A stretch of DNA of 64,000 nucleotides from Sabellastarte sp. h YS-2021 (Eukaryota > Annelida > Polychaeta > Sabellida > Sabellidae): positions 81,285,451 through 81,349,450 of the forward strand of contig OZ024932.1 of the NCBI GenBank assembly GCA_964017235.1, in the 5' to 3' direction. Positions 8,772 to 26,964 of the stretch are shown one piece after another. The stretch's first letter is position 1; each line of letters starts with the position of its first letter. Both the position numbers and the translations under genes were made by a program. Below the pieces are notes generated by a model, which saw only the letters and a program-made list of their open reading frames with translations, did no database searches and was not told the origin of the DNA.

Positions 8772-10962
8772 ATGGCATCTCCGGGCGATAAGAAGGGACA
8801 AAGAAGGGGTTCCTGTGGCCATGTTATGGCTCTTTTCGACTTACATGACAAATGTGCGCGGTGCCGCGAAAAGCTTATAGGGGAAGACAATTGTGTGAAG
8901 GACAAGCCGTGTAAGATTTGTGATGGCTTTACACCGGCCCAGAAGGATATGTTGTCTACTCCAATTTATAAAATTAGAAGAGACAAGAAAGCAGGGTTGT
9001 TAGTTTCCCCGAAGGAAGTTACTGTTTTACAGCCGGTTGAAGATATGGATAGTGAACCAACTTTTCAATCTCCTTCTGGCCAACAGGCTCAGTCTTCTGC
9101 TAACCCCCCTTCTACTCCACCTTCTTCATCTCAACAGACGGCTAGTTTTGTTACCTCAGACCAGTTAACAGCCATTGCAGATAAATGGTCAGAGCAATTT
9201 GCTAGGATGGAGGCACTTCTTTCTAGAGGTAACGTGTTTTCCACTCCTGTATCTTCAGTCAAGCCAGTCGACACTCAGAATCTCATTTCTGATAACCCCT
9301 TCTTAGCTCCAGCTACCCATCCCACCGGTCCGATGAAGGTACCGGTAGCTGTTGAGGCTCCACTTGCTGCTACCCCGGTAGATGCCAAAGATAAGAGGAA
9401 ATCTCACAAATCCAGAAAAGACAAACATTCTGATAAAAGTGACTCCAAATCTTCATCTAAATCTAAGAGCAGCAAGGATGTTTCCAAACCGGAGAAAAGA
9501 CGTGACCGGTCCCCCTCACCGGTGTCAAGGTCTAAAACTAAAGCTCCTTCTTCTTCCCCTTTGCCTGGTGCCAGCTCCGGTCCGGAGTCTGCTCATCAGT
9601 CAGTTGTTCCTAAAGGGGACAGGTCTAGCCAGAGTCAGGATTTAAAAAAGTCTTCCGGTTTTCTCCTTTCCAGTCTGCACCTTCCACTCCAATGGCTCCA
9701 CCGGAACAGGATACCAGTCTTGATTTTACCGGTGCCGGTGCATTTCCTCATGAACAGTATGAACAAGTATCTGACGATGATTTTGACCGGTCTGCTTCCA
9801 GTTCCGGTTCTGAGGACGGTCATTTTTCTGATGTTGCAGATCCACCAGAAGACGGTACGTTCTGTGAGAGCGTTTATGGGTTGGCACCACATTCCGGCCT
9901 TTGAAACAGACTTTTCAGAACCGGACAAGTCAAATAACCCTTGGAAAGGGAAGAACCCAAGAAAACCCACACGCATCTCAGTAGCCATGCCCCCTGATGA
10001 CTGGTTGTGCCAGAAGTTGGAAAGGTTAAATCTCACTGTCGCAGAGGGTTACCCCTCTCGCTCACAAGATTCCGCAGGTTTGAGACGTGACCAGTTCATC
10101 AAGGTGCCTAAGTCACAGGAGAAATGGTACAAGATGCACCTGATTAAATCTGACGGGCCACATCGTCCTGGTCGTTCTGTTTTCAACTGGAGAAACACTG
10201 AGGCAAAGGTTAATTCCCATTTCCCAAGGATAACTCGTGCCTCTGCTTACCCGTCCACAGGCCCTCCCTCCAGGCCTATTGCCCAAGAATCCCTGCGCAG
10301 GTGGGAGTGTGCCGCACGTGAAGACAGTTATATCATCAATCATGCGGCAGGCTTCAGTCGCTGTTCCACCGAACTTCAGGAGAAGATGTCACAGAATATT
10401 ACTCTGTTGTCCTCTCATCTTGGCAAAGGAAAGTGTTCGAAGGACGTGGCCAATGCTTTGAATGACCTGCGTGACCTCATGGCCTTTCATCAAAAAGTGT
10501 CGGTGGCCATGGGCACGTCTCTTCAGCATTTGGCGGACAGTTTGTTTGTGAATATGGCCAATCTAGTTCTGTTAAGGAGAGACTCGTATCTTGATTTTGT
10601 GAAGCAGGGCGTTAAACAGGATACTATGAATTTGCTGCGAAACGCTCCCCTTGTTTGGCTACGGTCTCTTCCCTGATGCAGCCATCATGTCTGCAGAGCA
10701 GGATATCCAAAAGTTTGAAGCTAGTAGCGTTGCTCAGAGGCCTGGACCGGGTGCTACTCAGCACGCAAGTTGGAAGAGTACCCAAAGATATAAGCCTTAT
10801 GACCATAAGGATAGGAAACAAACATCTTCCACTGACCAATCCTCTCAACAGCAAAGTCAGCCATGGAGACAGTTTGGCCGAAATCGTTTCAGAGGAAGGG
10901 GACGTGGTAGGGGTTCTAACCCCCGTTTTTCTAAAGGACAGTCCTTTAAGCCATATAAATGA
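8772..10962 (+). pseudogene. Gag-like gene of DIRS copy 2, frameshifted
   Basis: The ATG at 8,772 starts a protein with an N-terminal Cys/His cluster (SCGH, KCARC, CKIC within the first 60 residues), probably a zinc-binding fold. A low-complexity Ser/Lys/Pro region rich in CCGGT-encoded residues follows, then a conserved core beginning RAFMGW and a basic GRGRG tail. Compared with copy 3 the frame changes near 9,645, returns near 9,855 (compensating indels) and shifts again near 10,650, where one extra base precedes the GYGLFPDA motif. The final part runs 10,651-10,962 and ends at TGA. Gag would package the RNA. Copy 3 is the best comparison. Confidence 0.85.
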
Positions 10963-10968
10963 CAATTA
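10960..10968 (+). promoter_or_regulatory. Candidate stop-codon readthrough site, TGA CAA TTA
   Basis: The gag stop is followed by CAATTA, which fits the CARYYA hexamer known from tobacco mosaic virus-type readthrough. The same frame then stays open into the cysteine-rich and recombinase region. Copy 3 keeps an equivalent site. Function is inferred. Confidence 0.5.
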
Positions 10969-13900
10969 TCTAGGTGGTCCAACAGTCAAATTAGTACATC
11001 AGATTCAGTTGGATCCTCAGTGTCAGGACAAAAGTGTGTCTGCAAATCTAAGCTTAGACAATTTTTAGACAGTAAACAGTGTTCCATTGTTCCAGACCAA
11101 GAATCGTCTGGCTGTGTATTGTCCTGTTGTCAGTCCTGTTCGTTCTGTTCTTTCACACGGGCATCCGCAAAAGAAAGGAGTAAGCCCCGGCAATTGTCTG
11201 AACAAAATAAAGTCTGTAAAAAGTGTATTTTGTGTAGATCCTTGTGTTTTTGCCCCTGTTGTTCCCAGTGTCCCCAGTGCTGTCTCCGAACAGAATGTAG
11301 GGGGCAGACTTCAGGAATTTTGGCAAGTTTGGCAAGCCATGGGTTCAAATCCCCGGGTAGTCTCTATCCTAAAAAGGGGTTACACCTTGCCCTTCAAACA
11401 AAGACCGGTTCTAACCAGGTTCCCAGTGGTTCAAAGTGGTTATGCAAACCCATCCAAAAACATGCATCTCAAAGAGGCTCTTGTAAGTCTCATGCGAAAG
11501 TTGGTAGTAGAAAAGGTAGTGGTCAAGTCGTCCCTGGCCTTTTACAACCGCCTGTTCCTGGTTCCCAAACCAAACAGCAAATGGAGACCAATCTTAGACC
11601 TAAGTCGTTTGAATCTCTTTCTCAGTACCGGCACATTCAAGATGGAAACTCCGGAAACAATCCGCTTATCCTTGAAGACGGGGGAGTGGGTCACGTCGCT
11701 GGACTTCAGCGACGCTTACTTCCACATCCCCATAGCCCCAAGATCAAGAAAGTATCTCAGGTTCTTCCTGTTTCAGCAAACTTTCCAGTTCACAGCCCTG
11801 CCATTCGGACTGGCCACAGCTCCCCTGGAGTTTACCAAGGTGGTCAAAGAAGTGAAACTCATGGCTCAAGCGAGGGGTATCAGGATACACCAGTACCTAG
11901 ACGACTGGTTACTGAGAGCCCCTTCCCCGGAAATCTGCCTACAACATACCCAGACCCTCTTGGCCCTATGTCGGCAGTTAGGTTGGGTAGTAAATATGAC
12001 CAAATCAGAGTTAGTTCCCAGACAGGTCTTCAATTTTGTAGGTTACCGGTTCGACCTGATCACCGGCCGGGTTCTACCCACTCAGGACTGGTGGGAAACC
12101 CTTCAGGGGAAATTGAGGTTCATGAAAGACCATCACCAGTGTACGGTTCGACAATTCATGTCCTTGACAGGCCTCCTGACGGCCACCGAGAAACAAGTGT
12201 GTGCAGGTCGCCTTCATATGAGGCCCATTCAGTGGCATCTGAAGAAACACTGGCATGTCCCGGAAGTCCTAGAGAAAGTTATTCCGGTCCCTCAGTCACT
12301 CCATCCTCATTTGGACTGGTGGTTGGACGAAGCCAATGTGCTGAAAGGTCAACCCCTGCACCCTCTTCAGCACGCCGTTCAACTATTTACAGACACCTCA
12401 AATGAAGGTTGGGGCGCACACTTAGGAGACTTCACTGCAAGAGGCGTTTGGTCCCCTCTCGAAGGTCGCCTTCATATAAATTTTCTCGAGATGAAAGCAG
12501 TCCTTCTGGCCTTACGACAGTTGGAGCATCTGTGCAAGGATCAGATTGTTCTTGTGGCAACAGACAATACCACAGTGGTCTCTTACATAAACAAACAGGG
12601 GGGTATGAGGTCAGGCTCTCTCTGTGCCCTCCTTTGGAGACTCCTGTCCTGGTGCCATCACAGGGGCATAACGCTAAGGGCAAGGCACATTCCGGGTCGC
12701 TTAAATGTGATAGCCGACAAGCTTTCTCGGCACAATCAAGTGATTCAGACCGAATGGTCTCTCTCCCCTCAGGTTTTCAGTCAGTTGTGTTCCAGGTGGC
12801 CTCCACCGCTAGTGGACTTGTTTGCGACCAGGTTCAATCACAAACTGCCCCGGTTTGTGTCACCGGTCCCGGATCAGGCAGCCTGGGCAGTAGATGCCCT
12901 GAGCTTGTCCTGGGAGCATCTGAACGCTTATGCATTCCCTCCTGTCTTCCTGCTCCCTCAGGTAGTTTCGAAGATAAGGGATCAGGGTTGTCACAGGATG
13001 ATTCTGATTGCCCCAGGTTGGCCAAACATGCCTTGGTTTTGGGACCTGGTGGACCTATCCGTTCAGATCCCCTTCACCCTTCCTCTAACAAGGGACCTAG
13101 TGACTCAGCCTTTCAACGGGCTAGTTCACCGGAACCTTCAGAATCTCAATCTTCATGCTTGGCTCCTAGAAGCTCTACCATCAGGAAACACGGCTTCTCT
13201 GAAGAGGTGGCAGCACGAATTGAGGCTCCTCAGAGGGGGTCAACCAGAGCCGTGTACAAGTCAAAGTGGACCATATTTGTCAAGTGGTGTAAATCGAACA
13301 AGGTGGACTTCAGGTCACCCTCTGTGAATCATATTGCGGATTTTCTCCTTTACCTCTTCAAAGAGAGGAATCTGCAACCCAGCACCATTGATGGTTATAG
13401 GATAGCCATCGCAGATATGGTGGGTAGTGACAAACTCAATATAAGCTCAGATGAAAATCTTACCCGCCTGTTGGACAATTTTCATAGGGACAAACCGAAA
13501 GGTCGAAGAGGGGTCCCTTCCTGGAACCTTTCGCTAGTGCTCCATCAGCTTACCAAGGCTCCCTTCGAGCCTCTACGGAAGGCTTCGCTGAAGCATCTGA
13601 CCTTTAAGACGGTTTTCCTTTTGGCCCTGGGGTCAGGCAAAAGAAGAAGCGAAATCCATGCCTGGTTAGCTAAGAATATCAGGCACCAAGGGGACTTGTA
13701 TCCATCCCCCAGTTTCCTCTCCAAAAACCAGCTGGCTCGGGATGGACCAGCTTCAGTGGCTCCAGTAGTCATCCCAGCTCTAGCTCCAACGTTGGATAAG
13801 TCCTTGTCTGGGGACAGGTCTCTGTGCCCAGTACGGGCTTTACGTTACTACCTGGACCGGACCAAGGATTCCTGTCAGGGAAAGGAACTGGTCTTTGTGT

Positions 13901-14220
13901 ATTTCAAGACAGGTTTTCAGAAGGACATTGTCCCTGCCACCATTTCCTCCTGGGTTAAACAGACGGTACTGTTGTGTTATCAACTTTCCGACCAGAAAGC
14001 TCAGGATTTACATCAAGTCAGAGCCCACGATGTCCGTGCTTTCGCAGCCTCTAGGGCCTTTCAGGGAGGAATTTCTCTAGATCAGATCCTTTCCGCTTGT
14101 CACTGGAAGGCTCATAATACATTTACCCAGTTTTACCTGAAAGACTTGGCCTGGGCGGATTCTGAGTTGTATCATTTGGGCCCGGTGGTGGCAGCCCAAC
14201 AGATTCAGGATACACAATAG
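10963..14220 (+). pseudogene. Cysteine-rich plus tyrosine recombinase frame of DIRS copy 2, one in-frame stop
   Basis: In frame with the end of gag and separated from it by a single TGA. A cysteine-rich segment (about 11,095-11,300; patterns CPCCSQCPQCC and VCKKC) comes first, then about 300 codons overlapping RT, then a TGA at 12,403-12,405, then the recombinase region to TAG at 14,218-14,220. The recombinase shows GSGKRRSEI (box-I Arg), VRAHDVRAF (HxxR), CHWKAHNTF and the FYL tyrosine. At the internal stop, copy 3 has CGA where copy 2 has TGA, a change expected from CpG deamination. A few residues around the box following HAW are deleted relative to copy 3. The 3' part from 12,409 could still be translated alone. 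Confidence 0.85.
11087..13327 (+). CDS. Reverse transcriptase-RNase H with degenerate methyltransferase-like domain, DIRS copy 2
   Basis: An open frame of about 746 codons in +1 relative to gag. RT motifs are clear: SLDFSDAYFHIPI (first catalytic Asp), ALPFGLATAPLEFTK and QYLDDWLL (YxDD). RNase H follows, with LFTDTSNEGWGAH, HINFLEMKAVLLAL and ATDNTTVVSYIN. After it comes a segment VDLFATRFNHKLP ... YAFPPV ... LIAPGWPNMPWF, which I read as the Dam-like methyltransferase domain known in DIRS elements, with FPPV where an active enzyme would have a DPPY/NPPY motif. There is no ATG at the start, so it is probably reached by frameshifting or internal initiation. It overlaps the recombinase frame over its whole length. 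Confidence 0.9.
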   Translation: MFQTKNRLAVYCPVVSPVRSVLSHGHPQKKGVSPGNCLNKIKSVKSVFCVDPCVFAPVVPSVPSAVSEQNVGGRLQEFWQVWQAMGSNPRVVSILKRGYTLPFKQRPVLTRFPVVQSGYANPSKNMHLKEALVSLMRKLVVEKVVVKSSLAFYNRLFLVPKPNSKWRPILDLSRLNLFLSTGTFKMETPETIRLSLKTGEWVTSLDFSDAYFHIPIAPRSRKYLRFFLFQQTFQFTALPFGLATAPLEFTKVVKEVKLMAQARGIRIHQYLDDWLLRAPSPEICLQHTQTLLALCRQLGWVVNMTKSELVPRQVFNFVGYRFDLITGRVLPTQDWWETLQGKLRFMKDHHQCTVRQFMSLTGLLTATEKQVCAGRLHMRPIQWHLKKHWHVPEVLEKVIPVPQSLHPHLDWWLDEANVLKGQPLHPLQHAVQLFTDTSNEGWGAHLGDFTARGVWSPLEGRLHINFLEMKAVLLALRQLEHLCKDQIVLVATDNTTVVSYINKQGGMRSGSLCALLWRLLSWCHHRGITLRARHIPGRLNVIADKLSRHNQVIQTEWSLSPQVFSQLCSRWPPPLVDLFATRFNHKLPRFVSPVPDQAAWAVDALSLSWEHLNAYAFPPVFLLPQVVSKIRDQGCHRMILIAPGWPNMPWFWDLVDLSVQIPFTLPLTRDLVTQPFNGLVHRNLQNLNLHAWLLEALPSGNTASLKRWQHELRLLRGGQPEPCTSQSGPYLSSGVNRTRWTSGHPL

Positions 14221-14586
14221 CTCCTTTATCCTCGGGCTTGTACATATGTATATACTGTGTATTAAAAAAAAAAAATAAAAAAAAAACTTTCTTCCACTAT
14301 CCTGGGTCCTTAGTCTGCCGCGATCCAAAGTGGGGCTAAGGGCTTGATGAGATAGTCTTATAGGTCCTGTTCTTCCTCATTAGTCAGAACTTTTACCCTC
14401 CTCAGTCCGATTGTGCTCCTAGCGAGCCAGTACTGGACTTTTGAGAAAAGAAGGGGGGGGGGGGGGCAGTAGGTGTGATCCGAGGTATCTGGTTTCTAAT
14501 CATTCCGGATCCACCTTCTTATACATAGTTTGGAGTTCTGAGGAATTCCCCTCTTGGCTACCCTCCTTCCACTGGGTAGTTATTCT

Positions 14587-14682
14587 GCATCTGTCCACTA
14601 GGTAAGATGTATTAACGCAATAAAATGGAAAATTTAATAAGTAAATTAAATTTTTATAAGTTAATACCTTACCTAGTGGACA
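14587..14682 (+). repeat. Internal complementary region of DIRS copy 2
   Basis: The left half complements 8,464-8,500 and the right half complements 14,905-14,962; the two meet at AACGCAATAAAATGG, which is what a circle junction would look like. Confidence 0.92.
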
Positions 14683-14749
14683 GGGGGAGTCCCTCCCTAC
14701 CTTCCCCGCTATTTTTAGCCCTAGGGGATTTCCTACGGTAGGCAACAAA

Positions 14750-14962
14750 AAGAGGAAGAGCGCATGCGCTGCGCAGTACACCGGCAGGGAGACTATACAG
14801 CCACCTGGCGAGTGAACAGGACGCTACCGGTCCCGGCCAGAGCCCAGCTCAGGACGTTTTTTTCTAACGTTTGGCGTGACCGGCAAGGCGCCGGACAAAT
14901 GCATCTGTCCACTAGGTAAGGTATTAACTTATAAAAATTTAATTTACTTATTAAATTTTCCA
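14750..14962 (+). repeat. Right inverted terminal repeat, DIRS copy 2
   Basis: Reverse complement of the left ITR (8,464-8,655), ending TTAAATTTTCCA. The sequence that follows is a different, satellite-like repeat. Confidence 0.9.
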
Positions 14963-14984
14963 CTTCGTCCCTACCAAGTGCAAA

Positions 14985-15545
14985 CCTTTTACACCTTACA
15001 GTATCTGAGATATAGCTCAACCGTATTTTAAAGGTGAAGGTCACTACAGCAAGGTCAAAATTCAAATCAAGGTCATATCATGATGTTGCACACCTACACT
15101 CCCTAACCAATGTCCCAACCAAGTTTTGACTTCCTACAACTTACAGTTTCCGAGATATAGTCTGGACAAGATTTTAAAGTTCAAAGTCACTACAGAAAGG
15201 TCGAGGGTCAAATCAAGGTCACACCATGACGATGCACACCTACACCCCCAGCCAATGTCCCTTCCAAGTATCAACTTTGTACATCTTTTGTTTTCTGAGA
15301 TATAGCCTGGACAAGATAATAAAGGTAAATGTCACTACAATTCAAAGTCACACCATGACGTTGCACACCTACAACTGCCAACCAATATCTCTACTAATTA
15401 TCGACTTCCTACACCTTACGGTTTCCGAGATATTGCCCAGCAAAATTTTCAAAATCAAGGAAGGTCAAATTAAAGTCATCATAACATTGCACACCTACAA
15501 CACTTGCAAACCAATGTCAGTCCCATTTATCATCTTACAAATCAT
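14985..15545 (+). repeat. Satellite of about 127-147 bp with AGGTCA-like half sites
   Basis: Four to five divergent monomers share CAAGGTCACACCATGACG, GCACACCTACA and TTTCCGAGATAT. Anchor positions about 15,075, 15,221, 15,348 and 15,475 give the spacing. The same family occurs inverted at 49,426-49,680. The motif AAGGTCA recurs next to further AGGTCA-like sequence. Nothing coding is evident. Confidence 0.8.
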
Positions 15546-15599
15546 GATTCGCAACAGCCCTTACAGGCTGTGGGGTAAAAAAGTAATAATGTTCTGCAT

Positions 15600-15887
15600 T
15601 AGTCTTTCTATTATTATGTTTAAATAAAAATGTAAACAGACATTTTTATTTTAATGTGTATGAAAGTTAAAATTTTGTACATTTAGCTTCCCACTCCATG
15701 AAATAGTCAATAGATTTCTCGTCAATTTCATGAAATGGTAACTTGTTTTGTCCATTGCATAAAATGGACAGGTAGATTGTCGATTTCATGAAATATATGT
15801 TACAGTAAATATGTGAAATCAGTAATTAAGCGTATTTACTGATTTGGTCAGTAAATACGTGTATTCCCCAAAATTTCCAGTAAATTT
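15600..15887 (+). repeat. AT-rich palindromic repeat, left part of the target of DIRS copy 4
   Basis: Contains recurring TTTCATGAAAT palindromes and AGTAAATACGTGTATT. A closely similar uninterrupted stretch at 32,360-32,485 joins this sequence directly to the sequence found on the far side of copy 4 (from 21,397). Confidence 0.7.
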
Positions 15888-16225: not shown

Positions 16226-16729
16226 CAACAGAAGCTTGAATGCAGCCCTGAGGTCCATGGTGGGTAGACTTCTGAGGACTGTCAAGTGCTATAGGAGAGT
16301 TCTTTAGGTATACAGATACAAAAAAATGCATACACAATATGTTATACTACAAACACTGTAATATACTACATATATGAATACTAGTATCATTATTACTGTC
16401 ATAGTCTATACAAGTACTGTTAAAGTGAAAAGTAATTGTAATAAAGTAGCTGTAAAGTACTCACCCACTTATGAAAACAGCATGCTGTACTGTACATCAA
16501 ATAATATGTATGAAACCCTCCACCTTGTCTATACAGTAGTGCAGGGGTCAAAGGTCAGCTGTGCCCAGTTGAATAAAACTCCAACAGTCAGAGTGCAGCT
16601 GTCCCTCAAGCCAAGCAGCCATAACATGAAGTCTTATCCATATTCTTGTTCCACAAATCAAAGTCCTAGTACATTCCAGTCCAAATCAATACATCCTGAA
16701 AACATAAAGACTGATTATATTATTAAGTC
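16226..16729. other. 3' spacer of DIRS copy 4
   Basis: AT-rich non-coding DNA between the recombinase stop and the ICR. It lacks the poly-G tract found at this position in copies 1 to 3. Confidence 0.6.
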
Positions 16730-19663
16730 TCAATTGTTCACTACATGCTGTGCAGACACAATGGGACCTAACTTAAAGATATCATCATTTTCCCAGGAAA
16801 TATCCTTCAAATAAAAGTTTGTAAAGGTATTGTGGGATTTCCAGTAACAGGAGCTCAAGACCTGCTCTAAGGAGATACCTCCTTTAAATGCAAGTGATGC
16901 AGCCATAGCTCTAACATCATGAGCTCTAACCTGAGTGACCTGTTGATCAGCCGTATCTGAAGACTGATAGCAAGTTTGAATGGTGTGTTTGATCCACTGG
17001 GAAATGGTTATTCTTGTGATATCCTTAGAATAACCCTCCCTAAGGGATACAAAGAGCAGGGCCTTGCCCTTTCTCATGGATTTGGTCTTCTGTAAATAGA
17101 CCTTGAGGGCCCTAACTGGACAAAGTGACTTGTCCTCCACCAGCGAGCTGTCCAACATGGTAGTAAGGGCTGGTATCACTACTGGCTTAATGGAATCAGG
17201 GCCATCTGAAGCCAATTGGTTTTTAGCCAGGAAGGCCGGAGAAGGAGAGACAGTAACTTCTGACCAATTTCTCCTTGAAGAGACAGAAGAGTGAGTCCAT
17301 GCATGTATCTCACTCCTTTTTCCCGAGGCTAAAGCCAACAGGAACACTGTCTTGTAAGTTAGCCACTTCAAAGGAGCCTCTGACAAAGGCTCAAAGGGAG
17401 GTTTTGTCAAACCTAAGAGGACCAATGAGAGGTCCCATGTAGGTATGGACCTATTTGGTTTAGGTCTATCCCTGGTGAAGCTGGCAATAAGTCTATTCAG
17501 TTCTAGACTTTTTGAAATGAATTCACCCTGTGAACCCAAAGCATCAGCAATTGCTGTTCTGTAACCAGTGATTGTAGCTGGTTTGAGATTTTTGACTGTG
17601 AACAGGTAGTTTAAAAATTCTGCTACCTGGGGAACAGCTGTTGAGGTGATGTCCACCTTATTCTCTGTGCACCATTGCCCATAAATGGTCCACCTTGATT
17701 GGTAGACTTTTCTTGAGGATTCCCTCTGAGGTGCCTTAATTCTTTCTGCCACCTCAGATGAGAATCTTCCAGAATTGGATTCCTGGAATCCAGAAGCCAC
17801 ACATGCAGATTCAGGTACTCCACGTTGTTGTGGAACCTGTTGGAATGTGGTTGTTTCAGTAATGTCTTCCAATGAGGGAGCTGTAGAGGTACCCTGGTCG
17901 AGAGATCCACCAGATCCCAGAACCACGGCATCCCTGGCCACCCTGGAGCCAGTACTATCATCCTGCATGGGTATGTTATTATTTTTTGAATTACTTGTGG
18001 CAGGATGGCTACTGGACAGAAGACATAGCCGTCTAGGCCTTCCCAACAGATATTCAATGCATCTATTTTCCAAGCCTTTCTGTCTGGGACAGGAGATACA
18101 TAAATTGGAAGTTTGTAATTTAGATGAGTTGCAAAAAGATCTACCATTGGTGTGTGCCAAACTTTGCAAATTTGGTTGAATATCTGTTGGTGAAGTGACC
18201 ACTCCGTCTGTATGACCTTGTCCCTTCGTGATAGAGAGTCTGCTATGACGTTTAGGGATCCAGGTACGTGTCTTGCCCTTATCTGGATTCTTCTGGAATT
18301 TGTGAATGCAAGAATTCTCCAGATAAGAGCACACATCTCTATGGAATGTGTGCCTCCTTCTTTGTTCAGATAAGCTACTACTGTGCTGTTGTCTGAACAA
18401 ATGAGCACTGTTTGACCTTGTAAGTGTTCCTGAAAGCCCTTTAGGGCTAGAAGAACAGCTTTTAGCTCCAATACATTGATGTGGAGCTGGGCTTCCTTGT
18501 TTGACCAGAGACCACTTAACACTATCTCGTTTAAGTGAGCTCCCCAGCCTTTTTGTGAGGCATCTGTAAACACCAGTGTGTTGTGTACCTGAGGATGGAT
18601 AGGAGCACCTGCCATGAGATTTTTGATATCCTCCCACCACTTTAGGTGCTTCAGGAAATTTCCTGTTACTGGAATCCTTATGTCCAATGACTGGGGAAAC
18701 TTCCAGTGCGACTTTAGGTACCACTGGAAAGGTCTCATGTGTAACCTTCCTAGTGGCACTGTTTTTTCCAAGGAAGCTAAAGTCCCTATGAGCGACATGA
18801 GCTTTCTTGGAGTCAAGACTAATGACTTTCTGATGGAAACAGTCTGAGCGTTTAGCCGATCGAGTTTCTTCTGGGTTGGGAACACTAGACCCCTCTGAAG
18901 GTCGAAATAATAGCCCAGAAAATCCAGTTTTTGCGTGGGTATCAATTCCGATTTTTGAAAATTGATAAGCCAGCCTAGTTCTTGGACCAATTGAACTAAC
19001 TTTTCCGAATCTTTGAGACACTGATCTTTTGATGGTGACCGAAGAAGCCAGTCGTCCAGATATTGATGGATTCTGAGGTTCCTGGCTTGAGCTATGAGTT
19101 TGACCTCTTTGACAATGCGAGTGAACTCTAGGGGAGCTGTCGCGACACCAAAAGGAAGAGCTTGAAACTGAAAAACCCCTTTTTTGGTCTGAAATCTCAG
19201 ATATTTTTGAGATTGTGGATGTATTGGAACATGGAAATAAGCGTCTGTGAGGTCTATCGAGATGACCCACTCCCCTTTTCGAATCGATTTCCTGATAGAT
19301 TCGGCTGTTTCCATCTTGAATGTCGGTACATGTAAATGAAGGTTTAACATACTTAGATCTATTACTGGTCGCCAACGATTCATGGGTTTTGGAACCAGAA
19401 AAAGTCTGCTGTAGTATCCCAGAGTAGTGAGTTTTTTGACAGGAACTATCGCCTTTTTTGTAAGCATGGCCTGAACTGCCTCTTGGAGGGCGCCATCTTT
19501 GTTTTTGTTGTGATATTCGCTCAAAATGAGCGGAATTTTCGACAATTTTGGAAGAAACTTGAAGTCTAGGCGATAGCCATGTTGCAGTAAACTTACTACT
19601 CTGGGATGGGCGTGGTTTTTTGACCATACCTGCCAAACAGTCCGCAATCTTGCCCCTGGGAAG
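16730..19663 (-). CDS. Tyrosine recombinase frame of DIRS copy 4
   Basis: The frame is open from directly after the gag TGA (19,666-19,664) to a stop at 16,730. It is in the gag frame. The first 600 or so codons overlap RT and have a low-complexity Ser-rich composition. The recombinase region in the last 330 residues has LASGKRSEI (box-I Arg), VRAHDVRAM (HxxR), CYWKSHNTF and the NFYL tyrosine. The enzyme would integrate the circular cDNA. The codons after the gag stop are CTT CCC, so the CARYYA context of copies 2 and 3 is absent. Independent initiation inside the frame is possible. No break is seen. Confidence 0.9.
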   Translation of the reverse strand, partial: LPRGKIADCLAGMVKKPRPSQSSKFTATWLSPRLQVSSKIVENSAHFERISQQKQRWRPPRGSSGHAYKKGDSSCQKTHYSGILQQTFSGSKTHESLATSNRSKYVKPSFTCTDIQDGNSRIYQEIDSKRGVGHLDRPHRRLFPCSNTSTISKISEISDQKRGFSVSSSSFWCRDSSPRVHSHCQRGQTHSSSQEPQNPSISGRLASSVTIKRSVSQRFGKVSSIGPRTRLAYQFSKIGIDTHAKTGFSGLLFRPSEGSSVPNPEETRSAKRSDCFHQKVISLDSKKAHVAHRDFSFLGKNSATRKVTHETFPVVPKVALEVSPVIGHKDSSNRKFPEAPKVVGGYQKSHGRCSYPSSGTQHTGVYRCLTKRLGSSLKRDSVKWSLVKQGSPAPHQCIGAKSCSSSPKGLSGTLTRSNSAHLFRQQHSSSLSEQRRRHTFHRDVCSYLENSCIHKFQKNPDKGKTRTWIPKRHSRLSITKGQGHTDGVVTSPTDIQPNLQSLAHTNGRSFCNSSKLQTSNLCISCPRQKGLENRCIEYLLGRPRRLCLLSSSHPATSNSKNNNIPMQDDSTGSRVARDAVVLGSGGSLDQGTSTAPSLEDITETTTFQQVPQQRGVPESACVASGFQESNSGRFSSEVAERIKAPQRESSRKVYQSRWTIYGQWCTENKVDITSTAVPQVAEFLNYLFTVKNLKPATITGYRTAIADALGSQGEFISKSLELNRLIASFTRDRPKPNRSIPTWDLSLVLLGLTKPPFEPLSEAPLKWLTYKTVFLLALASGKRSEIHAWTHSSVSSRRNWSEVTVSPSPAFLAKNQLASDGPDSIKPVVIPALTTMLDSSLVEDKSLCPVRALKVYLQKTKSMRKGKALLFVSLREGYSKDITRITISQWIKHTIQTCYQSSDTADQQVTQVRAHDVRAMAASLAFKGGISLEQVLSSCYWKSHNTFTNFYLKDISWENDDIFKLGPIVSAQHVVNN

Positions 19664-19749
19664 TCATTTCCTCTTTCCACCTCTGCCTCCTCGCGATGCG
19701 CGCGCAGAGAAGTGGCCATAGGTTGAATTTTGCTGTGTTCGTTTGTCAC
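17623..19749 (-). CDS. Reverse transcriptase-RNase H of DIRS copy 4
   Basis: A frame of about 708 codons that overlaps the last 86 nt of gag in +1. RT shows SIDLTDAYFHVPI, ALPFGVATAPLEFTR and HQYLDDWLL (YxDD). RNase H shows VFTDASQKGWGAH, HINVLELKAVLLAL and SDNSTVVAYLN. The C-terminal Dam-like region shows VDLFATHLNYKLP and GYVFCPVAILPQ, where the motif has lost the PP pair kept in copies 2 and 3. It starts with GTG rather than ATG, again suggesting +1 frameshifting from gag. No internal stop is present. Confidence 0.92.
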   Translation of the reverse strand: MTNEHSKIQPMATSLRAHREEAEVERGNDFPGARLRTVWQVWSKNHAHPRVVSLLQHGYRLDFKFLPKLSKIPLILSEYHNKNKDGALQEAVQAMLTKKAIVPVKKLTTLGYYSRLFLVPKPMNRWRPVIDLSMLNLHLHVPTFKMETAESIRKSIRKGEWVISIDLTDAYFHVPIHPQSQKYLRFQTKKGVFQFQALPFGVATAPLEFTRIVKEVKLIAQARNLRIHQYLDDWLLRSPSKDQCLKDSEKLVQLVQELGWLINFQKSELIPTQKLDFLGYYFDLQRGLVFPTQKKLDRLNAQTVSIRKSLVLTPRKLMSLIGTLASLEKTVPLGRLHMRPFQWYLKSHWKFPQSLDIRIPVTGNFLKHLKWWEDIKNLMAGAPIHPQVHNTLVFTDASQKGWGAHLNEIVLSGLWSNKEAQLHINVLELKAVLLALKGFQEHLQGQTVLICSDNSTVVAYLNKEGGTHSIEMCALIWRILAFTNSRRIQIRARHVPGSLNVIADSLSRRDKVIQTEWSLHQQIFNQICKVWHTPMVDLFATHLNYKLPIYVSPVPDRKAWKIDALNICWEGLDGYVFCPVAILPQVIQKIITYPCRMIVLAPGWPGMPWFWDLVDLSTRVPLQLPHWKTLLKQPHSNRFHNNVEYLNLHVWLLDSRNPILEDSHLRWQKELRHLRGNPQEKSTNQGGPFMGNGAQRIRWTSPQQLFPR

Positions 19750-21208
19750 GAAACGACCTGTTACCTTCCTGTGAGGGCTTTGGATGTGAAAACCTCCCGA
19801 AATCGAAATTCTTCACAGAGTCTCTGTATGACTTGGAATCAGATTCCTTCATTATTGACAATCTTTTGATCATGTTATCCTCAACCTGGGATAAAATATC
19901 CGAGTTGAAGACCTCCTGTTGGTCAAAATGGTCTGTACGCAAGCTTGCCAAGTCCTTAAGACCTAATTTTGAGCTGCAGTCCTTCAATAAGCTGTCTCTC
20001 CTTGCAAGTAGCATATTGCAGGCCAGAGTCATATTCTGCTTGAGGACTGTATCCAGAGCTATTTCTAAGGAAGATGTGACAGAAGCCTGGAGTTGAGAGT
20101 ATTTGATCATGAGATCTGCTGATTCCCTGATGGTTTCCAGATCTTCTGAACATTTGATCTCAGTAGCTAACTCCTGGATCCTATTGTTGAGTTCCTCAAT
20201 AGCCATTTTAAACCATACAACATGGCCCAGGATTTGAACATTTTCTCTGCAAACTGTCTCCTGTACAATAAACTGCTTGGGAGGTACAGAGATTGAAGAT
20301 GACAAAGACTTTACTTTAGCTATGTTGAAGTATGAGTCAGGAAGTTTAGGAGCTTTCAGAGGAGTATTTTGAGGAGAAGTGGTGTAATAAATCATGTCAG
20401 GCCTCTCAAAGGCCAAAAACTGTCCCTGAGATAGAGATTCAGAGCTGGACTTGTCTTTTACTGTTGTTCCAGAGGCCTTTCTGTATCTATAGTCCCACAT
20501 GGACTGTATATCTTGAACAGGAGGTAAAGCCAAATTCTGTTTTCTGACCACCTGCTTTGAAGGTTTCTTAGAGAATGCAGAGGGAGCCACAAGGCACTCT
20601 ACTTGTGGTACCTCTAAATCCAACAGATTCCTGATGGCATTGAGCATTTCCACATAGGAAGGATCTAATTCCTGGGAATGAGTGTCTGAATCACCCTGAG
20701 GAGACCTGGATCTATGGCGTTTCGTAGCAGGTAAAGATGATTCCTCATCAGATAATTCCCCCTCTGAGGGGACTGGTCTGCTCTGGGAGGCTGGGGCACA
20801 CATACCCTGCTCCTGAGAGTGTGGAAGAGTTGTTTTGGAAGCTGAAGGTTTATCCCTGCGCTTAAACTCCTCAAATTGAGAAGCCAGGGAAGATAACTGA
20901 GAATTCATAGCCTTTAACATCTCCTGAAGAGATGAATCAGGAGTAGAAGTGGAGGAAGTTGAGGACTTTGAAGGAGTTGGCTCATCCAACAGCGAGTCAT
21001 CAAACTTGTCAGAAACTTTAGTTTTTGAAGATTTCTTTCTATGAGGAATTTTCAAAGCACCAGGACAAATAGTACAGTCACTTTCCTTACCAATCACACA
21101 CTTATCCTTCCCTTTCTTGTCGTTTCTGCATTTTAAACAGGCCTGATGGTTGTCCCAAGGCAACATATCACCTGCACAAATGGAGCATTTCCTTTGTTTT
21201 TCGGACAT
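19664..21208 (-). CDS. Gag-like protein of DIRS copy 4, intact
   Basis: An ATG at 21,208 opens a 514-residue frame. The N-terminus has CSIC, CLKC and CTIC pairs within 55 residues, matching the Cys/His cluster of the copy 2 and 3 Gags in position. A Ser/Thr/Pro-rich region follows, with the RHRSRSPQ motif near residue 170, then a conserved core containing MWDYRY and a basic RASRGGRGGKRK tail just before the stop. It would bind and package element RNA. Sequence similarity to the other family is limited to the N-terminal cluster and general layout. Confidence 0.88.
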   Translation of the reverse strand: MSEKQRKCSICAGDMLPWDNHQACLKCRNDKKGKDKCVIGKESDCTICPGALKIPHRKKSSKTKVSDKFDDSLLDEPTPSKSSTSSTSTPDSSLQEMLKAMNSQLSSLASQFEEFKRRDKPSASKTTLPHSQEQGMCAPASQSRPVPSEGELSDEESSLPATKRHRSRSPQGDSDTHSQELDPSYVEMLNAIRNLLDLEVPQVECLVAPSAFSKKPSKQVVRKQNLALPPVQDIQSMWDYRYRKASGTTVKDKSSSESLSQGQFLAFERPDMIYYTTSPQNTPLKAPKLPDSYFNIAKVKSLSSSISVPPKQFIVQETVCRENVQILGHVVWFKMAIEELNNRIQELATEIKCSEDLETIRESADLMIKYSQLQASVTSSLEIALDTVLKQNMTLACNMLLARRDSLLKDCSSKLGLKDLASLRTDHFDQQEVFNSDILSQVEDNMIKRLSIMKESDSKSYRDSVKNFDFGRFSHPKPSQEGNRSFRDKRTQQNSTYGHFSARASRGGRGGKRK

Positions 21209-21244
21209 GGTAAAAAATCTTTGAAGATCCGAAAAGAACGCGTG

Positions 21245-21385
21245 TGTACTTGACGGCGGTCAAAATAAGAATGACAACTTACAGTGGAGATATAACCTCC
21301 AGCAGGTGCCCGCTGGGGTTTACGTGTGTACATTAAGACGGTAGGTCACGTAAGCTTCTGTTGGGATTATGTAAGTACGTTTTTA
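21245..21385 (-). repeat. Inverted terminal repeat (5' side) of DIRS copy 4
   Basis: Reverse complement of 15,925-16,090 without the 44-bp insertion; it lies directly upstream of gag in element sense and probably contains the promoter. Confidence 0.9.
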
Positions 21386-21396
21386 TGCAATAAAAA

Positions 21397-22183
21397 CACA
21401 TATTTACTGATTTATGACCTGTGTTATTTCACAAGTTTACTGGTATGACTTTCAATAAATATGTGAAATGAAACTTTGATGTTTGTTGGTTGTAAATATA
21501 TAATACTGGACTGTAAACCAAAACATACATTATATTGGAACATTTTACTCTGTTATGTTGACTATTACAATATACTTAGCAATACATTACATGCAATAAT
21601 TTATGTCAAACAATAGCACTAGACTTTGATATATTTAAGTTTACAAACTTTGTGTATGTGCTTTCAGTAAATATTTCATTTAAGCCTGTATTATTTTCAA
21701 TCCCACAGCTACAAAGGACCTATGGCATCCCTAACAATGATTAAAGATCATTAACTTTTCTCCATTTTTATGTGAGTGATACATAAAAAGTGTTTTTATT
21801 GGCAGTAAATAAAAGTTTTAGAAATTAATTGAAATTTGAGTTTCAAAATTTTAACATATTTTAACTATACTTTCATTCAACAGAAATTTTGCCTGGTCAT
21901 TTAAGACAAAATGATTTGATGCCTGCAGGGTGGAGTGTAGGGAATGCCCAAATATAATATAGTTCTTGGCGTCTGCGCCTGGTGGTTGCTTTTGGGCTTA
22001 TTGGATCCCCCATCCAATGTAAGATGCTAAATTCCATGTTTTTCACAGAACGATTTTTTCTCTGTGAAATGCCTCGAAACTGGAGTGGCATTTTCAGGCT
22101 GGAATTTCTGAACACTGCTGTAGTGTTCATACATCCTGTTTCTAAATGGTATTTAAATGTTTTCTTGGTGTGGAAACTGGTTT
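21397..22183. other. Unassigned intron sequence between DIRS copies 4 and 3
   Basis: The first 70 bp continue the AGTAAATAC-type repeat interrupted by copy 4. The rest is AT-rich and shows no recognised gene. Confidence 0.5.
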
Positions 22184-22187
22184 TTTA

Positions 22188-22385
22188 TTGCGTTAATATA
22201 TCTTACCTAGTGGACAGATGCATTTGTCCGGCGCACAGCCGGTCCCGCCAAACGTTAGAGAAAAACGCCTCGAGCTGGGCTCTGGCCCGGACCGGTAGTG
22301 TCCTGTTTACTCGCCAGGTGGCTGTATAGCCTCCCTGCCGGTGCACTGCGCGTGCGCGCGCATGCGTACTTCCTCCTTTTGTTTG
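22188..22385 (+). repeat. Left inverted terminal repeat, DIRS copy 3
   Basis: Matches copy 2's left ITR with scattered substitutions (for example GGCGCACAGCCGG for GGCGCCTTGCCGG). It includes GCGCGCATGCGTACTTCCTC, an NRF1/ETS-like arrangement, at 22,355-22,374. Confidence 0.9.
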
Positions 22386-22498
22386 GCGCGAAGACGAAAG
22401 GTCGTCTGTTTTTTTTTGGAGAAACTTTTATTTTATTTTATATCTGTTACAGGATATATTTTGATAAATTCTTTGTGTAGAAGTGTTGTTTAATAACT

Positions 22499-24665
22499 AT
22501 GGATTCACCAGGACAAAGGCGGGGATCGTGCGGCCATAAGATGGCTGGATTTGATATGCATGAGAAGTGTGCTCGTTGTCGAGACAAAGGTCTGGGTAAA
22601 GATCCCTGCATTGTGGGAGGTGCGATATGCAAGATTTGTGACAATTTTACAGCAATTCAACGTGATATGCTGGCCACTCCACAGTATCAAATTCGCAAGG
22701 ACAAGAAAGCGGGTTTGCTAGTGTCACCACGAGATGTAACTGTGCTGTCTCCAGTTAATTCTTCTCAACAGCCAGCTAGTACTGCGCATGCTCAGCAGAC
22801 GATTTCTGAAGATGACAGTGCGCATGCGCAGGACCTCCCTGGGGGTAGCGATAATGAGAGTTCTTCAGATTTTGTTTCCAAAAAAGATTTTGACAAATTA
22901 AGTGACCAGCTAGATGAGAAATTCTCTCGTTTTGAAGCACTCTTATCAAGAGGCAATATATTTGCTACCCCCAAAGTACCGGTTCAGGTTTCAAACCCAC
23001 CGGTTTCTGATCAGCCATTCATAGATCCTGCCTCTGCCCGAACCACCGGTCCGGTGCGGTTTCCGGCAGTACAGGCTAGTACAGGATCAGATGGCAAGAA
23101 AGATTCAAAGAAGAAGCACAAGTCTTCTCATCATAAATCTTCCAAAGCAAAACCGGTTCCGGTTGAGGAAAATACCGGTCCGGTACAGAAAAAGCCCTCT
23201 GACACTGCACTTCAACAATCTAAACCGGTACCAGTCGGGGAGATGACCGGTCCGGTCAGGGCATACCAAACTGACACCGGTTCCGGTTGTGGATGGATCT
23301 TTTACCGGTCCGGAACCGGCTGCACCGGCTGGGGAGCCGTTTATTAGAAACCTTGCTTCTGCTGGTGGCTCAGATGATATGTCCAATGTTGAACACCCCT
23401 TAACAGATGTTTTGCCTGTGGCTTCAGACGAACCACTCTTTGGGGATCATACATCAACAGATGTTGTGGATAGGGATCATACATCACCAGATGTTTTGGA
23501 TAGCGAGGATGGTGAACTTTCTGAATCAGACACTGATAAACCAGAAAAGAATGAAGAAATGAGTTACAGGGAAACAGTTCGTTCCATCAGGGCCTTTATG
23601 GGCTGGAACTTTATCCCAGACTTTGAGTTTGAGTACAGTGACCCGGATAAGTCCAACAATCCGTGGCGTGGAAAAAATCCGAAGACAAGTTCAAAGGTGT
23701 CAGTAGCCATGCCAGCAGACGATTGGCTCTGTCAGAAGCTGGAGAGGATTAATCTGACTGTAGCTGAGGGTTACCCTTCCCGAAGTCAAGAAGCTGGTGG
23801 TTTGCGTACTGACCAATTCATACGCACCCCTAAACCACAGGATAAATGGTATCCCATGCATAAGTTAAAGACAGATGGTCCCCAGCGACCAGGTAGAAAG
23901 CTGTTCAACTGGCATGGTTCTGAGGCGAAACTAAATGCTCAATTCTCAAGAATTGTCAAACCAGCTGCATATCTCGCAACAGGTCCCGTGTCTCGTCCCA
24001 TATCGCAAGAAGTACTACGCAGATGGGAAAGGTGCGCCCGAGAGGGTACTTACACAGTGAACCATGCAGCTGGTTTCAGCAGATGCACTAGCGAGATTCA
24101 AGATCAGATGGCACATCACATAACTTTCCTACAGACTCATCTCAGTAAGGGCAAGTCAGCCAAGGAGGTGTCTGAAGCACTTAAGGAGTTAAGGGATTTA
24201 TGTGCTTTCCACCAGAATGTATCTGTCTCTCTTGGGACAGCTCTACAGCACCTGGCTGATAGCCTTTTTGTGCAGCTGGGGAACTTCATTCTGATGCGTC
24301 GGGACTCTTATTTAGATCATGTTCGTCCCGGTATGAAGATGGACACTTGGAATGAACTGAGGAATGCTGCTCTTTTTGGATATGGGTTATTTCCCGACGC
24401 GGCCTTGAATGTCGCGGAACAAGATATCAACAAGTTTGAGACACAACATGTGTCGGTCCAGTCTCGAGTTGGTCCCCAGCACCAACAGAAGACCAAGTAT
24501 CGCTATAAACCGTATGAGAAGAAGGAGGCTAAGACCATGGTTCAGCCGTCATCTGCTCCTCAACAACCTTGGCGACAGTTTGGGTCACGAGGTCGTGGCC
24601 GTGGGCGTGGTTCTACTAACCACCGTTTTTCCAAGTATGCCCGGGGTGGCAAAAATTATAAATGA
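22499..24665 (+). pseudogene. Gag-like gene of DIRS copy 3, one frameshift
   Basis: An ATG at 22,499 starts MDSPGQRRGSCGHKMAG with the same Cys/His cluster as copy 2 (KCARC, CKIC). A long Ser/Lys-rich region encodes repeated TGPV units from clustered ACCGGT motifs (22,975-23,330). The frame changes by +1 between 23,289 and 23,347, after which the conserved core (RAFMGW, FGYGLFPDA) and a GRGRGRG tail run to TGA at 24,663-24,665. The break lies inside the repetitive ACCGGT region, so polymerase slippage or a sequencing error is possible. RNA-binding Gag function is inferred from position and basic tail. Confidence 0.87.
22975..23335 (+). repeat. ACCGGT/CCGGT motif cluster in gag
   Basis: About fifteen CCGGT-type motifs, eight of them ACCGGT, occur in some 360 bp. 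A similar but looser cluster is present in copy 2 (9,320-9,925). They encode TGPV and PVPV units. Confidence 0.85.
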
Positions 24666-26964
24666 CAATCATTGTACAAACCCACACAACCAAATAATTC
24701 CAAAGATAGTGGGTCAAAACATCAGCCCTCAAAACTTTTCAAAGACTGTATACTCAAGAACTGCTGTAATTCCTGTTCCTATTGTTGTCGGTCCCGGGCA
24801 GCCGCAAAAGAAAGGCCTAAGTCCCGATCTTTGTCAGACAGAAATAAAACATGTCAAAAGTGCTTCTTTTGTCTCTCCTTGTCGTTCTGTCCCTCATGTA
24901 CCAAATGTCCACAGTGTTGCAGAAAATCCTCCTGTAGGATGCAGGTTGCACAGGTTCTGGGAAACGTGGCTCAGCCTGGGTTCAAATCCTCGGGTAGTCT
25001 CCATCTTGAAGGACGGTTACAACCTCCCTTTCAAGATGAGGCCCCCATTGACCAGGTGTCCTCTGATAATCAGCGGATACGCCAACCCTCGCAGAAACAA
25101 GTTTTTGAAGGAGGCGTTGCAGTCCCTGATTACAAAACAGGCCGTAGAAAAAGTAGTGGTTCGGGCTTCTCTGGCCTTTTACAACCGGCTGTTCATAGTT
25201 CCCAAACCAAACAGCAAATGGCGTCCAATCTTGGATTTGAGCAAACTCAATCTTTTCCTCCACTCGGAAACCTTCAAAATGGAAACTCCGGAGACCATCC
25301 GGCTATCCCTTCAAAAAGGCGAATGGGTCACATCGCTGGATTTCAGCGATGCCTATTTCCACATTCCCATCAACCCAAGGTCGAGGAAGTATCTCCGGTT
25401 TCACCTGCACGGTCAAACCTTCCAGTTCAGGGCTCTGCCGTTCGGCCTAGCGACGGCTCCTTTGGAATTCACAAAGGTGGTGAAGGAGGTGAAATTGATG
25501 GCCCAGTCCAGGGGTATAAGGATCCACCAGTACCTAGACGACTGGTTGCTTCGAGCGCCCTTTCGGGAGGCTTGTGTGAACCAAACGCGGACCCTGATGG
25601 CTCTGTGTCAGCAGTTGGGATGGTTAGTCAATTTGCAAAAGTCAGAACTTGTTCCCCAACAGGAGTTCAACTTTGTCGGTTATCATTTCGACCTCTCCAA
25701 GGGTCTAGTGAAGCCGACTCAGGAGAGGTGGCAAACCCTAACCCAAAAAATAAAGATGCTAATGAACAGAGACCATTGTTCGGTCCGAGAGTTCATGTCT
25801 CTCATAGGTTTGTTGACAGCCACAGAGAAACAGGTGGTTTCGGGGCGCCTTCACATGAGACCGATTCAGTGGCACTTGAAGAATCACTGGCACGTGCCAG
25901 AGGTACTAGAGAAGGAGATTCCTCTTCCCAGATCTCTGTACCCTCATCTGCAGTGGTGGCTGGACGAAAACAATGTGCTCAGCGGCCAACCTCTTCATCC
26001 TCTACAACATGCTCTGCAGTTGTTTACCGACGCCTCAAACGAAGGTTGGGGCGCGCACTTAGGAGACCACACGGCAAAAGGAGTTTGGTCGGACTCAGAA
26101 AGCCAGTTGCACATAAACTTTCTCGAGCTAAAGGCGGTCCTTCTGGCCCTCAAGAAGTTCGAGCAACAGTGTTGGGGCCAGATCATTTTGATAGCCACGG
26201 ACAACACAACGGTTGTCTCATACATCAACAAGGAGGGGGGTATGAGATCAGGCTCACTTTGTGCCCTCCTCTGGAGACTGCTTTCCTGGTGCAATCGCAG
26301 ACAGATAGTTCTAAGGGCCAGGCACATTCCGGGAAGGCTGAATGTGATAGCAGACAAATTGTCCAGGAGCACTCAGGTTATTCAGACAGAATGGTCCCTC
26401 CTGCAGGAAGTCTTCGACCACTTATGTGCCAGGTGGCACACTCCCCGAGTGGATCTCTTTGCAACAAGGTACAATCACAAACTACCCAAGTTTGTGTCCC
26501 CAGTACCCGATCCACAGGCATGGAGAGTAGATGCTCTCAGCCTGAATTGGGAGAATATGGATGCCTACGCGTTCCCTCCTGTGTCTCTTTTGGGCAAGGT
26601 GGTGTCCAAGATCCTAGATCAGGGAGTTCACAGGTTGGTTCTGATTGCTCCAGGGTGGCCCAACATGCCTTGGTTCTGGGATCTAGTCAGCATGTCTGTT
26701 CAGATTCCTCTCTCCCTTCCAAACGTGGAGAACCTGCTGACCCAACCGTTCAATCAGTGTCCCCACAGAGATCTCCTAGGGCTCAACCTCCACGCCTGGC
26801 TCCTAGAGCCTCTAGCATACAGGCACAAGGATTCTCTAATGAAGTGGCAACGAGAATTGAGGCTCCTCAAAGACAATCAACCAGAGCCATCTATGAATCG
26901 AAGTGGTCCATATTTGTCAAATGGTGCGAGTCACACAAGGTGGACTTCGGGTCACCTTCTTTAA
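24409..26964 (+). CDS. Reverse transcriptase-RNase H with degenerate methyltransferase-like domain, DIRS copy 3
   Basis: The frame is open from inside gag (+1 relative to it). The first 100 or so codons overlap the gag tail and are not conserved as RT. RT motifs are SLDFSDAYFHIPI, ALPFGLATAPLEFTK and QYLDDWLL. RNase H motifs are LFTDASNEGWGAH, HINFLELKAVLLAL and ATDNTTVVSYIN. The Dam-like end has VDLFATRYNHKLP, YAFPPV and LIAPGWPNMPWF. RT is about 85 percent identical to copy 2 by eye over the core, far more than the overlapping recombinase frame in the same region. No stops. No clear ATG upstream of RT, so expression by +1 frameshift is likely. Confidence 0.92.
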   Translation: MSRNKISTSLRHNMCRSSLELVPSTNRRPSIAINRMRRRRLRPWFSRHLLLNNLGDSLGHEVVAVGVVLLTTVFPSMPGVAKIINDNHCTNPHNQIIPKIVGQNISPQNFSKTVYSRTAVIPVPIVVGPGQPQKKGLSPDLCQTEIKHVKSASFVSPCRSVPHVPNVHSVAENPPVGCRLHRFWETWLSLGSNPRVVSILKDGYNLPFKMRPPLTRCPLIISGYANPRRNKFLKEALQSLITKQAVEKVVVRASLAFYNRLFIVPKPNSKWRPILDLSKLNLFLHSETFKMETPETIRLSLQKGEWVTSLDFSDAYFHIPINPRSRKYLRFHLHGQTFQFRALPFGLATAPLEFTKVVKEVKLMAQSRGIRIHQYLDDWLLRAPFREACVNQTRTLMALCQQLGWLVNLQKSELVPQQEFNFVGYHFDLSKGLVKPTQERWQTLTQKIKMLMNRDHCSVREFMSLIGLLTATEKQVVSGRLHMRPIQWHLKNHWHVPEVLEKEIPLPRSLYPHLQWWLDENNVLSGQPLHPLQHALQLFTDASNEGWGAHLGDHTAKGVWSDSESQLHINFLELKAVLLALKKFEQQCWGQIILIATDNTTVVSYINKEGGMRSGSLCALLWRLLSWCNRRQIVLRARHIPGRLNVIADKLSRSTQVIQTEWSLLQEVFDHLCARWHTPRVDLFATRYNHKLPKFVSPVPDPQAWRVDALSLNWENMDAYAFPPVSLLGKVVSKILDQGVHRLVLIAPGWPNMPWFWDLVSMSVQIPLSLPNVENLLTQPFNQCPHRDLLGLNLHAWLLEPLAYRHKDSLMKWQRELRLLKDNQPEPSMNRSGPYLSNGASHTRWTSGHLL
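24663..24671 (+). promoter_or_regulatory. Candidate stop-codon readthrough site, TGA CAA TCA
   Basis: The gag stop is followed by CAATCA, which also satisfies CARYYA. The frame continues without a stop for 1,066 codons. See 10,960-10,968 for the matching site in copy 2. Confidence 0.5.

Follow-up and report, generated by a model that had tools for sequence, protein, structure and literature searches.

How do DIRS-type retrotransposons express a tyrosine recombinase (YR) whose frame overlaps that of the reverse transcriptase (RT)? The literature cited below, in those parts of it that were available to us, does not explain the expression of these overlapping frames. We analyzed a stretch of 64,000 nucleotides from Sabellastarte sp. 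h YS-2021 (contig OZ024932.1, positions 81,285,451 to 81,349,450; hereafter the window), which holds four DIRS-type elements or pieces, referred to as copies 1 to 4. We propose that the gag stop in the context AA-UGA-CAR-YYA is a programmed readthrough site of type I, the kind known from tobacco mosaic virus (TMV), but with UGA as the stop. Such a site would give a fusion of Gag, a Cys-rich domain, a bridge over RT and YR, and from sequence comparison we put the probability of this reading at roughly 0.8.

In copy 2 the gag stop TGA (10960-10962) is followed by CAATTA (10963-10968), and in copy 3 TGA (24663-24665) is followed by CAATCA (24666-24671). Both hexamers fit CARYYA and stand directly after an in-frame stop, as an earlier sequence-only reading of this DNA had pointed out. 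That reading also gave the copy 4 gag stop as TGA CTT CCC and placed the recombinase frame directly past the stop in all three copies, and both statements are borne out: on the minus strand copy 4 has TGA (19666-19664) and then CTTCCC (together 19666-19658), which does not fit CARYYA, and copies 2, 3 and 4 all continue past the stop in the YR frame, with RT in +1 in each. When both strands of the window are searched, AATGACARYYA is found twice, only at the gag stops of copies 2 and 3, compared to 0.61 matches expected by chance; 14 of 100 shuffles reached two matches anywhere. Type I readthrough is signalled by a CARYYA hexamer following the stop; natural cases are generally UAG, but the signal stimulates UGA as well (PMC3542737; this and the other papers are cited for the parts of their text available to us), and near-cognate tRNA binding is favoured when UGA is immediately followed by C (PMC12233894).

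The stop region of relatives is readable from their RT-frame proteins because RT is +1 to gag; in these proteins AA-TGA-CAR-YYA appears as N-D-[N/S]-[Y/H/Q] (N=AAY, D=GAY, N/S=AAY/AGY, Y/H/Q=TAY/CAY/CAR). This tetrapeptide was chosen after inspection of copies 2 and 3 and the first relatives, and was counted in a pool of 239 proteins, the nearest relatives of copy 3 (the best 120 of 1198 matches and the best 120 of 3230). The RT core is present in 121 of the 239 (a few others were missed by the pattern), and 114 of these 121 also have the RT-start motif. Upstream of the RT start the tetrapeptide occurs in 61 of the 114, many of the others having short upstream stretches. It is found in 53 of the 59 proteins with at least 100 upstream residues and in 28 of the 30 with at least 120, whereas 500 shuffles of the upstream sequences averaged 0.41 of 59 and never exceeded 3. 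RT identity among 60 carriers has a median of 0.69 and a minimum of 0.36, and these carriers form 29 clusters at 90%, 12 at 80%, 6 at 75% and 2 at 70%. Since the first motif position is N (AAT), the two adenines before the stop are fixed as well; such a pair was reportedly found by Tork et al. in 2004 to raise readthrough. The sequence-only reading had asked whether TGA-CARYYA is conserved beyond its surroundings, and at the protein level the answer is positive (53/59, with flanks mostly unconserved). A pattern search of viral contigs and genome contigs returned pattern matches, with no relative among them.

As these counts were made in the RT frame, N-D-[N/S]-[Y/H/Q] could be conserved as a piece of RT-frame protein, with the stop context as a by-product. 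We consider this very improbable, because the recurring residues track nucleotide degeneracy rather than residue similarity, most flanks are free to vary, and the RT frame of copy 2 is interrupted by a stop (11066-11068) 35 codons past the motif. When the motif positions were freed one at a time, the first yielded 4 extra matches (2.9 in shuffles) and the third yielded 1 (1.4 in shuffles), which is no more than chance level, the second and fourth yielded 0, and neither F in place of Y nor E in place of D appeared in these counts. The N/S and Y/H/Q variation is best read as following the nucleotide signal and not residue similarity. Among 31 flank-distinct representatives the flanking columns mostly measure 2.4 to 3.8 bits, with exceptions at columns -7, -3, -1 and +4 (1.3 to 1.9 bits), and the motif columns measure 0 to 1.24 bits, low values that in part reflect selection by the pattern itself.

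What lies past the stop also fits a type I site: the frame is open and its coding content is conserved. With the 1066-aa YR-frame open reading frame (ORF) of copy 3 as query, a search gave 1198 matches, of which the best 120 were listed, some of them RT-frame or chimeric. Lengths in 114 of these 120 run from 950 to 1106 aa and none exceeds 1106 aa, although the search admitted up to 1865 aa; since gag plus the YR ORF would come near 1790 aa, stop loss is rare among the best 120. Between the gag stop and RT we found a domain with Cys and Lys residues that vary little or not at all across an alignment of 65 sequences: copy 3, plus 64 of the best 120 chosen for reaching into the domain. In the +1 frame, compared over 59 of the 61 motif carriers, the Cys places show Val or Val/Ala (GTN/GCN), a passenger pattern that assigns the Cys-rich domain to the gag/YR frame.

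The first in-frame ATG past the gag stop is codon 92 in copy 3 and codon 207 in copy 2, so ordinary AUG initiation does not account for the Cys-rich domain of these copies. The Cys-rich domain and YR might be translated separately, through reinitiation, a non-AUG start or an internal ribosome entry site past the gag stop. A Met stands 13 codons past the gag stop of copy 4, and in 7 of the 64 relatives a Met other than the initial one occurs before the Cys-rich domain ends; moreover, the database writes the first residue as M whatever the start codon, and the sequence upstream of predicted starts is not visible in it. However, no such Met is present in the visible part of the other 57 of 64, the late ATG codons of copies 2 and 3 speak against separate translation, and it predicts neither a conserved hexamer after the stop nor a conserved AA before it. 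We therefore judge it improbable. Removal of the gag stop by splicing is harder still to credit. In the relative P0238 gag and the Cys-rich domain form one continuous frame, in which the stop place is taken by a single codon, a G followed by Q-S, which is encodable by CAR-YYA (the protein is chimeric further on), and splicing would not conserve six bases past a stop.

The readthrough reading extends to the long stretch in which the YR frame overlaps the ORF for RT, RNase H (RH) and a methyltransferase-like region (MT). We compared the YR-frame stops over RT with a null of synonymous codon permutation within the RT ORF (2000 permutations per copy). Copy 2 has 1 stop over 684 codons where 31.2 are expected, copy 3 has 0 over 671 codons where 31.4 are expected, and copy 4 has 1 over 708 codons, the gag stop itself, where 35.1 are expected. 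None of the 2000 permutations was as low as the observed count in any of the three copies, so selection and not chance keeps the YR frame readable through RT/RH/MT. This openness is selected in two distant families, copy 4 being 36% identical to copy 3 in the YR frame. It also fits the long pol-YR overlap known from DIRS1-like elements.

Taken together, these findings suggest the following course of events. Most ribosomes would stop at the gag UGA and release Gag, and a fraction would insert an amino acid there and continue in frame through the Cys-rich domain. These readthrough ribosomes would then pass the frame that overlaps the RT/RH/MT ORF and reach the recombinase, so that YR would be made as a Gag-Cys-rich-bridge-YR protein at a low, set level and packaged into Gag particles. 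RT/RH/MT, being in +1, would need a second event, for which a +1 frameshift close to the gag stop or past it is the simplest candidate. For the relatives, the exact bases are deduced from protein sequences, and readthrough itself, what becomes of the fusion and how RT is reached are all predictions.

An alternative is that UGA-CARYYA is mainly a +1 shift site from gag into RT, with the Cys-rich domain and YR made otherwise. Antizyme-like +1 shifts involve stalling at UGA. RT is indeed +1 to gag, the RT-frame ORFs of relatives span the gag stop, and upstream of the stop the +1 frame stays open for 85 codons (copy 3) or 115 codons (copy 2). But that openness is at chance level (0 to 1.5 stops expected), and we dropped +1 openness around the gag stop as evidence of frameshifting. 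In copy 2, moreover, a stop closes the +1 frame at 11066, an ATG-free entry to the Cys-rich domain would be required all the same, and CARYYA is a readthrough signal (PMC3542737). A site devoted mainly to the +1 shift thus appears unlikely, if less so than separate translation.

Several observations weigh against a programmed readthrough site. The RT frame allows TGA or CGA at the stop place and C or T at +4, so that in relatives the T of TGA and the C after it are presumed; the C is taken as such because an open YR frame past the stop demands it. Six proteins with at least 100 upstream residues lack the tetrapeptide, and two of these misses, P0129 and P0134, are ambiguous; P0137 and P0161 probably start downstream, judging from their relatives, P0195 looks like a deletion chimera, and the sixth is P0238. 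In 55 alignable codons of the Cys-rich domain, the codon positions favour the YR frame weakly and indecisively. Over the overlap the identity between copies 2 and 3 is 77% for the RT frame and 43% for the YR frame, most changes falling at RT third positions, and the bridge is thus not conserved as protein; on this evidence only its openness is selected. Third-frame stops exceed expectation (58 vs 42.0, 56 vs 40.5 and 60 vs 51.7 in copies 2, 3 and 4), and the permutation null is therefore not perfectly calibrated, although the deviation is opposite to that of the YR frame. The sequence-only reading had joined the gag and recombinase frames in both copies 2 and 3; this holds for copy 3, which is open to the end of YR, but in copy 2 the YR frame is interrupted again by TGA 12403-12405. 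The latter looks like decay, because the copy 3 counterpart is a sense codon and the RT-frame change is synonymous, reading Asn in both copies. RNA structure downstream of the stop is weak, with z-scores of -1.9 and -2.1 over 60 nt and -0.4 and +1.3 over 120 nt for copies 2 and 3, and +1.1 and +0.3 for copy 4. Copy 4, finally, lacks both the Cys-rich domain and CARYYA, its YR frame being open past the stop all the same. The proposal that readthrough makes a Gag-Cys-rich-recombinase fusion consequently stands for copies 2 and 3 and their relatives, in which the Cys-rich domain lies in the gag/YR frame, and does not apply in full to copy 4.

A downstream stem-loop was considered as a stimulator and dropped, being weak and not comparable between copies. 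A short stem is possible about 13-14 nt past the gag stop (10963-11022 and 24666-24725) and is too weak to claim.

Relatives of copy 4 were sought with its RT-frame ORF; the best 120 of 1813 matches contained 45 new proteins, 25 of which had a readable stretch upstream of RT. Thirteen of the 25 read [N/S]-D shortly before the RT start; this pair is followed by F, W, Y or C in 11 proteins (corresponding to TGA-CT[A/G/T]) and by S in the other 2. The type II readthrough signal is UGA-CUA. TGA-CT[A/G/T] is close to it, provided that the gag stop of these relatives lies where the peptide would place it. Separate from these 13 is a third group of seven proteins without the Cys-rich stretch (P0260, P0263, P0266, P0267, P0275, P0280 and P0283; six are among the 25). 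They read PL-x-N-[D/Y]-S before the RT start; six of the seven have D and fit PL-x-N-D-S-[S/Y/L], corresponding to TGA-CAG if their gag stop lies at this place. The full N-D-[N/S]-[Y/H/Q] is present in only one of the seven (P0263), a further point on the contrary side. Within the group, a gag tail runs on into the RT frame in P0266 and P0280, probably via a frame change. We rejected P0266, P0275 and P0280 as cases of gag and RT in one frame: they look like shifted-frame copies, the longest fitting run being 7 residues, a length reached by 20 of 2000 shuffles.

We think it fairly likely, with somewhat less confidence than for the site itself, that an entire clade of DIRS elements produces its integrase fused to Gag, through UGA-CARYYA readthrough, and that the RT overlap is kept open for this purpose. 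One mRNA with one start codon would then supply Gag, Gag-RT (by the +1 shift) and Gag-YR in set ratios, and families of the copy 4 type may use UGA-CUN instead.

The coordinates of the elements and their parts are collected in Table 1. Copies 2 and 3 have the inverted terminal repeats of DIRS1-like elements (pairs I19 and I6), and copy 3 has their RT and RNase H, with Pfam matches to RVT_1 (4.4e-22) and RT_RNaseH (1.1e-6). Matches to Dam after RNase H (E 0.071) and to Phage_integrase (8.1e-4) were below the cut-off. Further pointers to a tyrosine recombinase are a precomputed PF00589 assignment on 4 of the best 120 of 1198 relatives of the YR ORF, and the blocks HDVRAF and CHW...FYLKD, conserved in an alignment of YR-frame ORFs, which we take to hold the YR catalytic residues. 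Pfam returned 0 families on gag and on the Cys-rich stretches, and a PDB sequence search (query A3) gave 0 hits. A structure prediction of the YR ORF was not used (mean predicted local distance difference test score 34, with an average above 60 only at about residues 741-820). In copies 2 and 3 gag is split over more than one frame, and both copies are therefore probably decayed.

Table 1. Positions of the DIRS-type elements and their parts within the 64,000-nucleotide window
Feature	Position	Strand	Remarks
Copy 1	up to ~1043		3' end only
Copy 2	~8475-14920	+	long inverted terminal repeats
Copy 2 left terminal inverted repeat	8477..8627	+	pair I19, 100% complementary to 14770-14920
Copy 2 gag stop in TMV-type (type I) readthrough context, AA-TGA-CAATTA	10958..10968	+	
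Copy 2 YR-frame extension, gag stop to TGA 12403-12405	10963..12402	+	frame of gag and YR; overlaps RT
Copy 2 Cys-rich domain, gag/YR frame	11113..11298	+	bounds by eye from translation; close relative P0019 aligned
Copy 2 RT/RNase H/methyltransferase-like region, +1 to gag	11300..13327	+	conserved VGGRL motif to stop; Pfam RVT_1 on copy 3 counterpart
Copy 2 remainder of YR frame	12406..14220	+	tyrosine recombinase domain at 3' end
Copy 2 right-side inverted partner of left terminal repeat	14770..14920	-	pair I19
Copy 4	~16500-21400	-	
Copy 4 YR frame, open from gag stop to YR end	16730..19663	-	no Cys-rich domain
Copy 4 ORF in RT frame past gag stop, +1 to gag	17623..19663	-	
Copy 4 gag stop without CARYYA, TGA-CTTCCC	19658..19666	-	
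Copy 3	~22198-28591	+	long inverted terminal repeats
Copy 3 left terminal inverted repeat	22198..22385	+	pair I6, 99% complementary to 28404-28591
Copy 3 gag, 3' part	23289..24665	+	5' part 22499-23347 in another frame; no Pfam match
Copy 3 gag stop in TMV-type readthrough context, AA-TGA-CAATCA	24661..24671	+	
Copy 3 YR ORF, 1066 codons	24666..27866	+	begins directly after gag stop; Cys-rich domain, RT-overlapping stretch, tyrosine recombinase
Copy 3 Cys-rich domain, gag/YR frame	24762..24935	+	residues 33-90 of YR ORF
Copy 3 RT/RNase H/methyltransferase-like region, +1 to gag	24937..26964	+	RVT_1, RT_RNaseH
Copy 3 right-side inverted partner of left terminal repeat	28404..28591	-	pair I6

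Elsewhere the window contains tandem arrays of 133-bp and 169-bp units (43973-46306 and 51392-55104), the 169-bp type being also present in inverted orientation at 4792-5472. Repeat units of 351 bp form two blocks 2665 bp apart (36570-39534 and 37596-42071) that are 100% identical over several stretches of 118-300 bp, reflecting either a recent duplication or an assembly artefact.

If true, a conserved leaky gag stop would explain both how YR is expressed and why the YR frame stays open through all of RT, and would make YR a Gag-fused component of the particle. It would likewise provide a natural UGA-CARYYA site for readthrough studies, and N-D-[N/S]-[Y/H/Q] upstream of RT in the RT frame offers annotators a simple marker. 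The sequence-only reading knew of no description of such a stop in DIRS elements, and we found no report of one in the open-access literature, in the parts of it available to us; the DIRS reviews by Poulter and colleagues lie outside that scope, and a prior mention is possible. Neither "readthrough" nor "stop codon" appears as a term in the main text of PMC3266345 or PMC9210276, as available to us.

Compared to type I readthrough of the TMV kind (UAG-CAR-YYA), the site described here shares CARYYA directly after the stop, the open frame and a conserved domain in the extension (PMC3542737), and differs in having UGA and in residing in a tyrosine recombinase retrotransposon. Retroelements that read through between Gag and Pol (gammaretroviruses, and the Ty1/Copia elements Tca2 and VdLTRE5 with UGA) likewise have a single in-frame stop between gag and an enzyme gene, but it is pol that is reached there and the recombinase here. 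Gammaretroviruses have UAG-G plus a pseudoknot at the gag-pol stop. Tca2 and VdLTRE5 are without CARYYA (PMC3441728). An ALOG-type DIRS element of Ectocarpus encodes a YR protein with an N-terminal zinc ribbon, of FCS type, and an ALOG domain (PMC3537659); set beside our Cys-rich domain by description only, the shared point would be the N-terminal zinc ribbon of the YR protein, and the differences are the FCS type of the ribbon and the ALOG domain. Among 28 DIRS1-like elements half have a long pol-YR overlap, with the catalytic part of YR in the non-overlapping 3' end (PMC3266345), and overlapping ORFs are also described for DIRS elements of Xenopus (PMC9210276) and Dictyostelium (PMC5633606). 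The elements in the window share with DIRS1-like retrotransposons the gag ORF, the RT/RH ORF with a methyltransferase-like stretch, a probable YR ORF and the inverted terminal repeats; what sets them apart is that a conserved stop context links gag to the whole of the frame that overlaps RT.

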